The notes under the pieces: model-generated | Seen by the model: the letters and a program-made list of their open reading frames with translations, nothing else | The model's database searches: none | What the model was told of the DNA's origin: nothing | Source of the DNA: Pedobacter sp. L105 | Lineage (GTDB): Bacteria; Bacteroidota; Bacteroidia; Sphingobacteriales; Sphingobacteriaceae | Direction of reading: 5' to 3' | Assembly: GCF_009765875.1 (NCBI RefSeq) | Contig: NZ_LMUP01000009.1 | Coordinates: 511,700 to 575,699 of the forward strand | Length of the DNA stretch: 64,000 nt | Shown here: positions 27,560-33,492 of the stretch, in pieces | Layout: each line of letters opens with the position of its first letter | Position numbering within the stretch: the stretch's first letter is position 1 | Translations under genes and position numbers: made by a program

Positions 27560-27914
27560 AATATTTGCTGAAACTTTCGCATAATCCACATCCTGTTGTG
27601 GAATAAGAGCATTAATTCTATCCCTCAAAAGATGTAGATATTAAGTATGATGATGCAATGGCAAAATTGGCTGCTTCGCTTTAAATAGTAATTCAATACA
27701 TTACGCTCTTCATCATTAATAGTGTTTACGCTAATCTATTTTTTCAGCTTGAAGCGAAATACAAATTATTCTTGATCTGCAGCCTTCCCTAAAATACATC
27801 TCAGTATTTAATTGATAATAAATTATTTATGATTCAATTACCTTAGTCAATGCTGTGCATTTAATCAAGCCCTGCTAAGATTTAACGACTCCAAATATTT
27901 AAATGACCTAAAAT
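27560..27914. other. Intergenic region before the imu cassette
   Basis: 355 bases without a convincing gene. A short coding-like tail on the plus strand (FYPSKDVDIKYDDAMAKLAA, stop near 27685) could be the end of a lost gene, but it has no start. A weak hairpin (ATCCACA-N5-TTGTGGA) lies near 27586. The rest is AT-rich. Confidence 0.4.
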
Positions 27915-27929
27915 ACTAACAAAATTAGT
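27915..27929. promoter_or_regulatory. Candidate imu operator site 1
   Basis: ACTAACAAAATTAGT is a 15-bp inverted repeat (ACTAA-N5-TTAGT) ending one base before the -7 element TATATTTG. It recurs almost exactly 40 bases downstream (27955-27969). The position over the promoter suggests repression. The binding protein is unknown. Confidence 0.6.
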
Positions 27930-27930
27930 T

Positions 27931-27938
27931 TATATTTG
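27931..27938 (+). promoter_or_regulatory. -7 element of the imuA-imuB-dnaE2 operon
   Basis: TATATTTG matches TAnnTTTG exactly, 53 bases before the imuA ATG. It lies between the two 15-bp palindromes. No clear -33 TTTG is present at the usual distance, which suits a regulated promoter. Confidence 0.6.
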
Positions 27939-27952
27939 TTGTATAAAAAGAT

Positions 27953-27971
27953 TTACTAAAAAAAATAGTAA
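27953..27971. promoter_or_regulatory. Candidate imu operator site 2
   Basis: ACTAAAAAAAATAGT (27955-27969) matches site 1 at 13 of 15 positions, and the symmetry extends to TTACTA-N7-TAGTAA. The start-to-start distance to site 1 is 40 bases, close to four helical turns, so both sites face the same side of the DNA. It lies in the probable untranslated leader. Confidence 0.55.
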
Positions 27972-27990
27972 TTATTTTTAGCTTTAACTT

Positions 27991-28728
27991 ATGGAAACGA
28001 AAAGTGAATTGGTGTATAAGCTAAAGCAGGATATTCTGCTATGGCAGGGTTATAAGCCTGTTTCGGTAGCTACTACCGGGCAGATAGGGCTTGGAGTAAT
28101 AGAAAATGCTTTTCCTGGTGGGGTTTTTCCCAAACGGGCGATTCATGAATTCATTACTGTATATTCTGAGCATGCGGCGGCCAGTGATGGTTTCATTGCT
28201 GGATTGCTTGCCGTGCTGATGGAGGGCGGTGCTGCATGTATATGGATCAGCACGTCAAGGCGTTTGTTTCCAGCTTCTTTACGAACATTCAATGTAGCAC
28301 CTGAACGTGTCATTTTTATAGATGTGAAAACAGAAAAAGAGGTGCTATGGATCATGGAAGAGGCGCTTAAATGTGAAGGGCTTGCCGCTGTAGTGGCTGA
28401 GTGCAACCAGTTGAGCCTGATTGAATCGCGGAGATTACAATTGGCCATAGAAGAAAGCGGAGTGACGGGTTTTATCCTGCGTAAGGATGCCCGTAAAATG
28501 ACCAGTACCGTTGCTGCTGCACGATGGCAGATTAGTCCATTGCCCAGTAATGCTGAGGAAGGTATGCCTGGTCTGGGTTTCCCTCGCTGGCAGGTTGATT
28601 TACTAAAAGTCCGTAATGGGAATCCCGGCAGCTGGGTGTTGGAATGGGCTGGAGAGGCTTTTGTGGATGTGGCCCCGTTGAAAAAAGAAAGCATATGGTC
28701 TGAGCGGCAGGATCGTAAAATTGGATAA
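27991..28728 (+). CDS. imuA: ImuA-like mutasome accessory protein (RecA/SulA-like)
   Basis: A 245-residue RecA-fold protein and the first gene of a three-gene damage-mutagenesis operon. Typical features are the opening KQDILLWQGYK, the segment ENAFPGGVFPKRAIHEF and a central region with EALKCEGLAAVVAECNQLSL. In studied systems ImuA supports the inactive Y-family protein ImuB and the polymerase DnaE2 during translesion synthesis. No complete Walker A motif (GxxxxGKT) is visible. It is followed by imuB after four bases. Identification rests on both sequence and the conserved gene order. Confidence 0.88.
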   Translation: METKSELVYKLKQDILLWQGYKPVSVATTGQIGLGVIENAFPGGVFPKRAIHEFITVYSEHAAASDGFIAGLLAVLMEGGAACIWISTSRRLFPASLRTFNVAPERVIFIDVKTEKEVLWIMEEALKCEGLAAVVAECNQLSLIESRRLQLAIEESGVTGFILRKDARKMTSTVAAARWQISPLPSNAEEGMPGLGFPRWQVDLLKVRNGNPGSWVLEWAGEAFVDVAPLKKESIWSERQDRKIG

Positions 28729-28732
28729 CTTT

Positions 28733-30241
28733 ATGCAAAAACGTTTTGTTTCCATATGGTTTGGCCATCTTCTGGCAGACTGGCAGCTTATACGCCGCCC
28801 GGAACTTGCGGAGGTGCCTTTTGTTTTTGCAGCGCCTGACCATGGGCGAATGCTGATTACCGCTATCAGTTCAGTAGCACAGCGTTTTGGTGTTGAGGTA
28901 GGAATGCGGGCAGCAGATGCCAAAGCGATCTGTCCGGGATTGGAGGTGCTTGATGACAAGCCTGGGCGTTCTTTAAAACTGCTCCGCGGTCTTGGGGAGT
29001 GGTGTGTACGGTATTCACCTATCGTAGCCATTGATGAATACGCAAAGGATGGATTGTTGATGGACGTAAGCGGCTGCGCACACCTTTGGGGCGGCGAAAA
29101 GAAATACCTTAAAGAAATTATTTCCAGGCTAAAAAGTAAAGGTTACTCTGTTAGACTGGCTATTGCCGATACGCCGGGTGCTGCCTGGGCAGTGTCCCGG
29201 TTTGGTAAAATTACGCCATTGATTCCTGAAGGCGGTCATACAGAAGCTTTACTTTCTCTTATTCCCGAAGCGCTTCGGCTGGAAGAGCCTGTACTGATAA
29301 AACTGCAGAAGCTCGGTTTTTACCAGATTAAAAGTTTTATTGGCATGCCACGTTCAGTACTCCGCAGGCGTTTTGGTGAAGATTTTTTATTACGACTGGC
29401 CCAGGCGTTAGGTACTGAAGAGGAAGTACTTCAGCCTTTACAGGTTCCTGTGCCATTCCAGGAGAGGTTACCCTGTTTAGAGCCGATCAAAACGCGGACA
29501 GGAATTGAGATTGCTATCACCAGGTTACTGGAAAATCTATGTAAGCGCTTACAGGCTGAAGGTAAGGGATTACGTACGGGGATACTGACCGGATATCGTA
29601 TTGATGGTCATGTAGTGCAGGTAGCTATCGGCACCAGCGGGGCTACGCATAGCGTAAGCCATTTGTTTAAACTTTTCCAATTAAAAATTGACCAGATCAA
29701 GCCTGCGCTGGGGATTGAGCTTTTTGTGCTGGATGCCCCCAGGGTAGATGACGCGGAAGTGCCGCAGGAAGCCATGTGGACGGCAAAACCGGGTTTGGAT
29801 GATCAAAGTGTAATCCGCTTACTGGATAGGGTGGCGGGCAAGGTAGGACTGGATGTTATTCACCGTTATTTACCAGCTGCACATCACTGGCCGGAGCGTT
29901 CATTGCAGGTGGCGGTTTCCGTTACAGAAAAACCGGCCAGGTCATGGCAAACGGAAAAGCCCCGCCCAACAGAATTGCTTGGGCGGCCAGATCCGATAGA
30001 AGTGATGGCCCTGATCCCGGATCATCCGCCCAAATTTTTTATTTATAAAGGGGTACAGCATTTTGTAGTTAAGGCCGACGGACCCGAACGTATAGAGCGG
30101 GAATGGTGGCTGGATAAAGGAGAACATAGGGATTATTACCAGGTGGAAGATGATAAAGGCCAACGATACTGGTTATTTCGTTCGGGGCACTATGGCGAAA
30201 ATCAGAAATATAAGTGGTTCATTCATGGTTTTTTTGCTTAA
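28733..30241 (+). CDS. imuB: ImuB: Y-family polymerase-like protein, probably catalytically inactive
   Basis: A 502-residue DinB/ImuB-like protein. The acidic residues needed for polymerase chemistry appear lost: the N-terminal D-x-D motif is replaced by SIWFGHL, and the usual SIDE position reads KDGLLMDVSG, as in other ImuB proteins. ImuB is known as a hub that joins DnaE2, ImuA and the beta clamp. I see no clear canonical clamp motif, although the QLKIDQIK region could serve. The start ATG 28733 follows the imuA stop by four bases (a TTG at 28721 is also in frame), and the gene precedes dnaE2 by 11 bases. Confidence 0.92.
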   Translation: MQKRFVSIWFGHLLADWQLIRRPELAEVPFVFAAPDHGRMLITAISSVAQRFGVEVGMRAADAKAICPGLEVLDDKPGRSLKLLRGLGEWCVRYSPIVAIDEYAKDGLLMDVSGCAHLWGGEKKYLKEIISRLKSKGYSVRLAIADTPGAAWAVSRFGKITPLIPEGGHTEALLSLIPEALRLEEPVLIKLQKLGFYQIKSFIGMPRSVLRRRFGEDFLLRLAQALGTEEEVLQPLQVPVPFQERLPCLEPIKTRTGIEIAITRLLENLCKRLQAEGKGLRTGILTGYRIDGHVVQVAIGTSGATHSVSHLFKLFQLKIDQIKPALGIELFVLDAPRVDDAEVPQEAMWTAKPGLDDQSVIRLLDRVAGKVGLDVIHRYLPAAHHWPERSLQVAVSVTEKPARSWQTEKPRPTELLGRPDPIEVMALIPDHPPKFFIYKGVQHFVVKADGPERIEREWWLDKGEHRDYYQVEDDKGQRYWLFRSGHYGENQKYKWFIHGFFA

Positions 30242-30252
30242 GAAATAGAAAA

Positions 30253-33200
30253 ATGGAATACAGCGAATTGCAGGTAACCTCTAATTTTAGTTTTCTGCGC
30301 GGGGCTTCCCATGCAAATGAACTGGTAGATCAGGCGGCTGCTTTAGGATATAAAAAAATAGCGATCACAGACCGCAATACGCTGGCTGGCATAGTAAGGG
30401 CGCATGTGGCCTGCCGTGAAAAACAAATCAATTTGATTCCAGGTTGCAGGCTGGATTTGCTGGATGGCCCGAGCCTGCTGGCTTACCCTACAAATATTGA
30501 GGCTTATGGCAGATTGTCGGCATTGCTTACCAAAGGTAATCTGCGTGCGGAAAAAGGATCCTGTCACATTTCCCGTTCAGATGTGTATGAACATGCAAAG
30601 GGTATTTTGTTTACTGCAGTAATGCCCGGCGCACTAAACCGGCGTTTTGAGTTTGAAGATTCTTTTATTGACTCCATTGCCCAATATCGGGAGGCCCTGG
30701 GCAATCAGCTTTCCCTGGCCGCAACCCGTACCTATCTGGGGAACGACGATAAGCTTATCTTTCGGGTTTCCCAGCTTGCTGATCGTTTTACTATTCCTGT
30801 TGTAGCCACAGGTGATGTGCATTATCATGAACCTTCGCGAAGGGAGTTGCAGGATGTCCTAACCTGTGTCCGTGAGAAATGTACGGTTCAGGAGGCCGGT
30901 TTTCGCTTACACCAAAATGCTGAACGTTATTTAAAGCCGGTAGCGGAGATATATCGCTTGTTCCGCAATCATCCCGAAGCAATTAAAAACGCCCTGCGGA
31001 TTGCTGAGGCCTGTACTTTTTCGCTGGATGAACTGAAATATGTTTATCCGGAGGAAATTAACAAAAGCGGGCGAAGCCCATTGGAAGAATTGGAGTACTT
31101 AACCTGGAAGGGCGGCCATGAGTTTTATGGTGAAGTCATCCCGGAGAAAGTAATCAATATGGTTAACCATGAAATGGCCTTTGTAAAAGAGATGGATTAT
31201 GCGAACTACTTCCTTTTTGTGGAGGATATTGTCCGTGAGGCGCGCAGCCGGGGGATTTTATGCCAGGGGCGGGGATCTGCTGCTAATTCAGCGATCTGCT
31301 TTTGTCTGGGAATTACCTCTGTTAACCCCATGAAGTTTGATTTACTTTTTGAACGTTTCATCTCCTCTGTTAGAAATGAACCTCCTGATATTGATGTAGA
31401 CTTTGAACATGAACGGCGTGAAGAAATCATGCAGTACGTTTATAACAAGTATGGAAGAGACCGGGCAGCAATCGTTGCAACAGTTACGCAGCAACACCAA
31501 AAAGGGGCTTTCCGGGATGTGGGTAAAGCAATGGGACTTTCTGCAGATACGATCGACAGGCTTTCGGGTTCACTCTGGGAGTATACCGATGAATGGTTTG
31601 ATGCTAAGCGGTTAACGGAACAGGGATTAAATCCTGATGATCCGCATTTGAAAAAGACATTGAATTTGACTGCTCAAATGATGGGGTTTCCCAGACAGTT
31701 GGGGCAGCATACCGGGGGATTTGTAGTGACCAATGGCAAGCTGAGTGATTTGTGTCCGATCCTGAATGCACGAATGGCAGACCGGACAAATATTGAATGG
31801 AACAAGGATGATATTGATGCCCTGGGATTTTTAAAGGTAGATGTTCTGGCCCTGGGCATGCTGACCTGCATCCGTAAGGCTTTTGATTTGTGCCGCGACC
31901 ATTATGGATTGAACTTTACTTTAGCCAATATCCCGGAGGACGATAAGGAAGTTTATCAAATGATCAGTGCAGCAGATACCTTAGGTGTATTTCAGATTGA
32001 AAGCCGGGCGCAAATGGCCATGTTGCCCAGGCTGCGGCCCGAGTGTTTTTACGACCTGGTTATTGAAGTGGCCATTGTACGTCCGGGACCTATACAGGGT
32101 GATATGGTGCACCCTTATCTAAGACGGCGCAATAAAGAAGAGCCGACTGAGTATCCGTCGAAGGAGCTATATGAAATTTTGCACAGGACATGTGGTGTGC
32201 CCCTTTTCCAGGAGCAGGCCATGAAAATTGCAATTGTCGCAGCTGGCTTTACGCCAGCTGAAGCAGATGGTTTACGGCGCAGTATGGCTACCTTCAAGTT
32301 TAAGGGACTGGTGAACCAGTATGAAAAAAAATTGGTCGATGGTATGGTAAGTAAAGGTTATACTCCTGAATTTGCAAAACGAATTTTTAAACAACTGGAA
32401 GGGTTTGGGAGTTATGGATTTCCGGAAAGCCATGCGGCAAGTTTTGCCTTACTGGTTTATGTGTCCTGCTGGTTAAAGCACTATTATCCTGATGTATTTT
32501 CTACCGCCTTGTTAAACAGTATGCCAATGGGTTTTTATCAGCCTGCGCAGATTGTCATAGATGCACAAAAGCATAACGTTGAAGTAAGGGAGGTGGATGT
32601 AAATTATTCAAAATGGGACAATTCACTGGAAGAGAAATCCGGAAAGTATTTTGCGGTCCGTTTAGGTTTCAGACAGGTTAATGGAATGAGGGAGGGAGAG
32701 ATAGAGAGTTTGGTAGCTGGCCGTGGAGAAGGTTACCAGAGTATTACTGCCTTGCGTGATGCGGGTATATCATTGGTTGTATTGGAACGTTTGGCCGATG
32801 CGGATGCTTTTCGCTCGATGGGTTTTGACCGGAGGAAGGCGCTTTGGGAAGTGTCTGCCTTACAGGATATGCCAGAAAAATTGTTCAAGGGACAGCCTTC
32901 GGAAAGTGTGTTGGAAACACAGGTGGAATTACCGCTAATGAGTAAAGGAGAACATGTGGTACAGGACTATGCTGCTATAGGACTTTCACTCAAAGCGCAC
33001 CCGGTAAGTTTTATCCGGGGCCAGCTGGAAATGCTTCGTGCGCTATCCTGTCATGGAATCAACCAGGATGTAACTGCCGGACAACTGGTGAAAGTTGCCG
33101 GATTGGTCTTGGTGCGTCAGCGACCCGGAACTGCTGGCGGGGTTTGTTTTATCACCATTGAAGATGAAACAGGCTTTGTTAATTTAGTAGTTTTTGAAAA

Positions 33201-33492
33201 GCTGTTCGAAAAGTATAGAAAAGAAATTTTGCATGCTAAATTATTGATGGTTGAAGGTCGTTTGCAGCGTGAAAAAGAGGTGGTACATGTTATTGTAAGT
33301 AAGTGTGTGGATTTAACTAAGATGCTTGGCAAACTGATACAGCGGGAAGCAGATGATTTACCCGTACTTACTTCATCGCAGTCAGTTATAATATCCTCGC
33401 CTTATCCAGTGGAGAATAAACGTTCGCAAGTGCGGGAAGATGGGATGAAAACGGCTAAAGATGCTTTCTATGGGGGCAGGAATTTTAAGTGA
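30253..33492 (+). CDS. dnaE2: Error-prone DNA polymerase III alpha subunit DnaE2 (ImuC)
   Basis: A 1079-residue C-family polymerase. An N-terminal PHP domain (YSELQVTSNFSFLRGASH; ITDRNTLAG) is followed by the polymerase core with the catalytic aspartates in PPDIDVDFEHERR, the palm segment GRGSAANSAICFCLG, and the fingers/clamp-binding region. The C-terminus has an OB fold (GQLVKVAGLVLVRQRPGTAG, ITIEDETGFVNLVVF). It performs translesion synthesis as part of the ImuA-ImuB-DnaE2 mutasome. The start is ATG 30253; earlier in-frame codons overlap imuB. It is last in the operon. Confidence 0.96.
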   Translation: MEYSELQVTSNFSFLRGASHANELVDQAAALGYKKIAITDRNTLAGIVRAHVACREKQINLIPGCRLDLLDGPSLLAYPTNIEAYGRLSALLTKGNLRAEKGSCHISRSDVYEHAKGILFTAVMPGALNRRFEFEDSFIDSIAQYREALGNQLSLAATRTYLGNDDKLIFRVSQLADRFTIPVVATGDVHYHEPSRRELQDVLTCVREKCTVQEAGFRLHQNAERYLKPVAEIYRLFRNHPEAIKNALRIAEACTFSLDELKYVYPEEINKSGRSPLEELEYLTWKGGHEFYGEVIPEKVINMVNHEMAFVKEMDYANYFLFVEDIVREARSRGILCQGRGSAANSAICFCLGITSVNPMKFDLLFERFISSVRNEPPDIDVDFEHERREEIMQYVYNKYGRDRAAIVATVTQQHQKGAFRDVGKAMGLSADTIDRLSGSLWEYTDEWFDAKRLTEQGLNPDDPHLKKTLNLTAQMMGFPRQLGQHTGGFVVTNGKLSDLCPILNARMADRTNIEWNKDDIDALGFLKVDVLALGMLTCIRKAFDLCRDHYGLNFTLANIPEDDKEVYQMISAADTLGVFQIESRAQMAMLPRLRPECFYDLVIEVAIVRPGPIQGDMVHPYLRRRNKEEPTEYPSKELYEILHRTCGVPLFQEQAMKIAIVAAGFTPAEADGLRRSMATFKFKGLVNQYEKKLVDGMVSKGYTPEFAKRIFKQLEGFGSYGFPESHAASFALLVYVSCWLKHYYPDVFSTALLNSMPMGFYQPAQIVIDAQKHNVEVREVDVNYSKWDNSLEEKSGKYFAVRLGFRQVNGMREGEIESLVAGRGEGYQSITALRDAGISLVVLERLADADAFRSMGFDRRKALWEVSALQDMPEKLFKGQPSESVLETQVELPLMSKGEHVVQDYAAIGLSLKAHPVSFIRGQLEMLRALSCHGINQDVTAGQLVKVAGLVLVRQRPGTAGGVCFITIEDETGFVNLVVFEKLFEKYRKEILHAKLLMVEGRLQREKEVVHVIVSKCVDLTKMLGKLIQREADDLPVLTSSQSVIISSPYPVENKRSQVREDGMKTAKDAFYGGRNFK

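Follow-up and report, generated by a model that had tools for sequence, protein, structure and literature searches.

Candidate operators of a non-canonical LexA-type repressor upstream of the imuA-imuB-dnaE2 cassette of Pedobacter sp. L105

The mutagenesis cassette and its promoter

The window analysed here, a stretch of 64,000 nucleotides from Pedobacter sp. L105, carries an imuA-imuB-dnaE2 cassette preceded by two 15-bp palindromic elements, designated O1 and O2 (Table 1). The cassette, recognized from the letters alone in a first-pass annotation, is genuine: DnaE2 is matched by NF004225, ImuB by PF00817 and ImuA, below the curated cut-off, by NF033429. By its ImuA, the nearest named locus is that of Pedobacter sp. 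MR2016-24 (78% identity). Two gene starts probably lie inside the tabulated reading frames. Since the ImuB proteins of two relatives (L082 and L085) begin with MPKRF, the ATG at 28733 is the more likely start of imuB, and for dnaE2 we infer that the ATG at 30250 is the more likely one.

The same annotation placed the two elements, differing at two positions, at 27915 and 27955, with an exact TAnnTTTG between them. The coordinates and the differences are correct, and the intervening element is TATATTTG, which we take, in name and in role, to be a -7 promoter box. The description of both elements as inverted repeats holds in full for O1, whose arms ACTAA and TTAGT form a perfect palindrome, and in part for O2, an imperfect palindrome with one mismatch in an arm. 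Their start-to-start distance of 40 bp had been read as placing them on the same face of the DNA; as this corresponds to 3.8 turns at 10.5 bp, not a whole number, 'same face' is only approximate. O2 lies downstream of the -7 box, followed by the imuA ATG. A sigma-70 promoter scan of the plus strand at the imuA start gave no match.

Table 1. Coordinates of the cassette, its candidate operators and further exact sites elsewhere in the genome. Plain numbers are positions in the window.
Feature	Position	Strand	Remarks
O1, candidate primary operator, ACTAACAAAATTAGT	27915..27929	.	Exact RCTAAN5TTAGY, immediately 5' of the -7 box
Presumed Bacteroidota-type -7 promoter box, TATATTTG	27931..27938	+	Sequence; TTTG after the site in relatives
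O2, candidate secondary operator, ACTAAAAAAAATAGT	27955..27969	.	Single mismatch in an arm; starts 40 bp after O1
imuA	27991..28728	+	NF033429, E 4.8e-18, 65.7 bits (curated cut-off 150, hence below it); gene order
imuB	28721..30241	+	IMS domain PF00817, E 5.5e-15
dnaE2, error-prone polymerase	30214..33492	+	NF004225, 1367 bits (cut-off 939)
Repressor, contig C3, 258 aa	L005:916-1692		HTH_3 (PF01381) 56.1 bits, cut-off 23; Peptidase_S24 28.0 bits, cut-off 23.3
recA	L155:1981 and 2064 (sites)		Site with a 68-bp gap; second exact site 83 bp further, within the 3' end of a neighbouring ORF
DEDD/GIY-YIG exonuclease			Exact site, 27 bp
TIGR03916 radical SAM protein			Exact site, 35 bp
PA0069 radical SAM protein			Exact site, 11 bp
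Dcm/Vsr intergenic region	L006:2012-2095; G000 C10:108757		Exact site between divergent cytosine methyltransferase and Vsr endonuclease genes

Conservation of O1 and the spacing of second sites

A search of 121 genomes of the family yielded 73 ImuA matches in 63 of them, and an exact RCTAAN5TTAGY stands within 300 bp upstream of 62 of these. Among the best 30 imuA loci the figure is 28, against 0.28% in shuffled sequence. (Promoter controls throughout are single-base shuffles, except those for the motif count in the window and for the structure and promoter scans at the imuA start, in which dinucleotides were kept.) A further collection of 78 named loci, drawn from Pedobacter, Mucilaginibacter, Sphingobacterium, Olivibacter, Chitinophaga, Segetibacter, Ferruginibacter and others, has the exact site within the same distance in 74. 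The exceptions are L171 and L174, with sites at -444 and -423, L172, with one only at -864, and L226, where a contig end cuts the locus. At the level of the class, 8 of 295 genomes were matched by ImuA; the single one outside the family (L160) bears an exact site at -51. The first-pass annotation had proposed such an alignment of relatives, and lack of conservation, which would have spoken against an operator, was not found, since most relatives keep the site before imuA.

The 11 family matches without a site in this interval fall into a few kinds. Five (L082, L085, L095, L097 and L108) have an exact site ahead of a small leader ORF, five (L127 and L130-L133) lie next to a divergently oriented paralog of the repressor and have a different operator-like element, which in L133 is an imperfect palindrome, and the last (L137) is itself only a partial ImuA match. 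The leader ORFs encode 95-125 aa and separate the operator from imuA; a Pfam scan of four of the five gave no match.

The family and named sets overlap, and their 136 loci with an exact site reduce to 129 distinct promoters. In 93 of these a TTTG follows the site within 12 nt, compared with 6.5% in shuffles, and the commonest offset is 6 when either TTTG or TTTA is counted. With TTTG so close behind the site in most imuA promoters, a repressor bound there would cover the core promoter.

Whether O2 belongs to the same arrangement is a separate matter. It is rather unlikely, though by no means negligible, that O1 is the sole operator and O2 a near-match without a role, arisen by chance or in decay, so that no cooperative pair exists. 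Such a reading draws on the 86 of the 129 promoters that have no second site (up to one mismatch) at a distance of up to 110 bp from the gene-proximal exact site, on the arm mismatch of O2 and on L068, a locus of another genus lying outside the close set described below, whose ImuA is 68% identical and which has a single site and none at 40-43 bp. Against it, the remaining 43 promoters do carry a second site, at a frequency far from the 2.9% of shuffles, and the window together with all ten close Pedobacter loci (L066, L067 and L162-L169; ImuA identity at least 68%) has a site with up to two mismatches at 40-43 bp, where shuffles give 1.2% per locus; in L162 this partner is perfect. Site 1 is the conserved one, its partner at 40-43 bp being seen in the window and the ten close Pedobacter loci. 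O2 itself may be weak or dead, given its broken arm position and a gel-shift study in which substitutions in either arm of the motif abolished binding (Sanchez-Osuna et al. 2021; PMC8565304, consulted in part).

The spacings of the second sites are 19, 21-23, 29-30, 33, 40-43, 52, 54, 83 and 100 bp, and none of 24-28, 34-39 or 44-51 bp occurs among the 43 second sites in the 129 promoters. For the 15 distinct spacings, R is 0.56 at 10.5 bp, on a broad peak (0.51-0.59 from 10 to 11.5). Collapsed into clades, 18 spacings give R = 0.52 with a permutation p of 0.008, which is indicative only as the clades were drawn by eye; the best period is 10.0-10.25 and another peak, of 0.50, stands at 7.75. 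Cooperative binding is a plausible fit to spacings phased in this manner.

The repressor, its predicted regulon and its imuA-linked paralogs

Two proteins of the genome contain the S24 domain (PF00717), one of 258 aa on contig C3 and one of 228 aa on contig C25. The LexA DNA-binding domain (LexA_DNA_bind, PF01726) has no match in this genome; the control search recovered it from 10 of 14 known genomes. The C3 protein combines a helix-turn-helix domain with the peptidase domain (Table 1). Matches to it occur in 116 of the 121 genomes of the family, with E-values of 2.1e-68 or lower in 114. The segments KASAGYLNG, GDSMLP and VYKR are invariant in all 30 aligned orthologs; presumably they represent the Ala-Gly cleavage segment and the segments of the catalytic Ser and Lys. 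A search of solved structures with the repressor returned seven matches, all at its HTH end.

In the promoter of the C3 gene an imperfect site is flanked by two exact ACTAAN5TTAGT sites, the first of which is followed by TATATTTG, as at imuA. Every one of the 30 repressor loci fetched has an exact RCTAAN5TTAGY within 300 bp upstream (0.18% in shuffles), and in 29 the sites form a 23-bp pair whose upstream member has one mismatch; L060 has a single site. Divergent from the repressor is a minus-strand gene (L005:431-781) whose product has no match in Pfam or NCBIfam; as its start is 23 bp from the first operator, it is possibly co-regulated with the repressor.

That the palindromes instead serve the C25 protein, or some other HTH repressor, is very improbable. 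A second S24 protein is indeed present; however, the exact sites lie in the promoters of C3-type genes at all the loci fetched, and the three exact sites on contig C25 are none of them near C25:321474. The C25 protein moreover pairs S24 with a sub-threshold HTH_19, whereas the published regulator of this motif has PF01381, like C3 (PMC8565304, in the portion consulted).

Exact sites in the genome number 23, among them those at imuA, the C3 repressor (two), recA and the other genes in Table 1. Ten fall within ORFs, and five more (L007, L009, L147, L148 and L151) adjoin genes without an evident repair role. The site ahead of the TIGR03916 gene recurs in 28 of the 30 loci fetched. Two other candidates were set aside: the Vsr endonuclease as a conserved target, with an exact site at just 3 of 30 loci, and, as a new target, the hypothetical gene at L151 (site about 17 bp upstream), which has no match elsewhere among 121 family genomes. 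The search for the motif near SOS genes that the first-pass annotation had suggested thus finds it at recA, at the repressor's own promoter and at repair-type genes. The accompanying notion of a repressor dedicated to the cassette did not survive, for the repressor, with further sites at recA and at repair genes, looks global here.

The bare motif is not over-represented. The window contains 32 matches with up to two mismatches, against a shuffle mean of 40.8; genome-wide, exact ACTAAN5TTAGT occurs 10 times and its reversed control 30 times, exact RCTAAN5TTAGY 23 times and its control 55 times, and a longer pattern including ATATTTG (up to three mismatches) likewise has fewer matches than its control. 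As the motif is no commoner than the controls, its significance must rest on position and conservation. These counts are what could be said for the palindromes as AT-rich chance matches or hairpin or terminator features, an idea hardly credible in view of the fixed promoter position kept in Sphingobacteriaceae and Chitinophaga-group loci and of the finding of no terminator-like structure at 27560-28000.

A paralog of the repressor was detected (E <= 1e-60) in 52 of 399 family genomes and is absent from the window's own genome in the same search. Paralogs were noted at L127, L130-L133 and L240-L269. At the 30 paralog loci fetched, the gene is divergent from imuA in 20 and from another Y-family gene in six; four are without such a neighbour, of which L252 has a DinB-type neighbour and L241 starts near a contig end. 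Between -160 and +40 of these paralogs RCTAAN5TTAGY was found at none of the 30 loci, with one mismatch allowed. An exact TTGNYA-N7-TRNCAA stands at -42 in 23 of the 30, against 2 of 3000 shuffles, a control that flatters the pattern, as it was written after five such loci had been inspected. Within those 23, a second copy at -19, 23 bp on, has no mismatch in eight and one mismatch in 12.

Proposed mechanism and relation to known systems

The central proposal of the first-pass annotation, an operator of a non-canonical SOS-like repressor, is well supported: such a repressor is encoded in the genome, its own promoter carries matching palindromes and the site is kept before imuA. We regard it as highly probable that the palindromes are operators of the C3 repressor, as a non-canonical LexA of the CTAA-N5-TTAG group, with O1 providing the block, O2 reinforcing it and damage-triggered cleavage turning imuA-imuB-dnaE2 on. 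In the undamaged cell, a repressor dimer on O1, directly 5' of the -7 box, would block RNA polymerase, and repression would be tightened by another dimer bound to the weaker O2, which lies 40 bp away on the downstream side of the box. Upon damage, RecA filaments would induce the repressor to cleave itself at the Ala-Gly bond, after which the cassette would be transcribed. What the sequence shows is the repressor and its residues, the conservation of the operator, the layout of the promoter and the operators common to recA, repair genes and the repressor; that the repressor binds and is cleaved and the cassette induced in Pedobacter sp. L105, and that O2 has any role, is what we infer.

More tentatively, and with somewhat less than an even chance of being right, the imu promoter could be a switch resembling that of phage CI, in which cooperative pairs of dimers occupy operators near whole turns of the helix (19-23, 29-33, 40-43 and 52-54 bp). 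Some lineages would have exchanged the whole repressor/operator pair, the global one with CTAA-N5-TTAG giving way to a cassette-linked paralog and its TTGNYA-N7-TRNCAA, and yet have retained the 23-bp tandem geometry of the repressor promoter.

These results assign the error-prone polymerase cassette, here and in most of the examined relatives that possess it, to the non-canonical LexA regulon, and they supply exact operator positions for mutation. The phased second sites and the operator-switched linked paralogs are testable additions. They raise the questions of whether a CI-like SOS repressor has retained cooperativity in the style of CI, and of how repressor and operator change in step with each other. 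A literature search combining Pedobacter, LexA and imuA found no paper.

In proteobacteria, imuA-imuB-dnaE2 is controlled by LexA, which is cleaved upon damage. The two situations are alike in that the same cassette lies under a damage-cleaved repressor. LexA, however, has a winged helix and a different operator, and no LexA_DNA_bind domain was found in this genome.

The closer relative is the non-canonical LexA family of Bacteroidetes, with the motif CTAA-N5-TTAG, described by Sanchez-Osuna et al. (2021; PMC8565304), for which we draw on part of the text. In Pontibacter actiniarum, binding to this motif at recA was demonstrated by EMSA and mitomycin C induced predicted targets; imuA-imuB-dnaE2 was a predicted target in several species, and the Sphingobacteriaceae were among the families with large regulons. 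That work also reports, in Elizabethkingia anophelis, a repressor paralog that recognizes TTAC-N5-GTAA and lies beside a divergent error-prone polymerase gene (PMC8565304). The linked paralogs found here are similar in the divergent pairing of repressor and polymerase genes and in the shifted operator and, in our reading, many of the TTGNYA-N7-TRNCAA elements contain a TTAY-N5-RTAA core comparable with that of E. anophelis. They differ in belonging to Sphingobacteriaceae relatives (the window's genome has none), in lying mostly beside imuA and in the usual 23-bp tandem.

The regulon itself agrees with the published one in its operator with a 5-bp spacer, in the pairing of an HTH domain (PF01381) with S24, in autoregulation and in the predicted targets recA, imuA-imuB-dnaE2, COG4277, SplB-type radical SAM proteins and a GIY-YIG exonuclease. 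Promoters with two or more sites were noted there as well; the main text makes no mention of cooperativity (PMC8565304). There is no difference in kind from what the portion consulted describes, and the additions made here are the spacing of paired sites, their position relative to the -7 box and the imuA-linked paralogs with another operator. As the motif, the regulator and the predicted control of the cassette are already contained in that report, the locus is a clear new example of the system published in 2021, not a system of a new kind.
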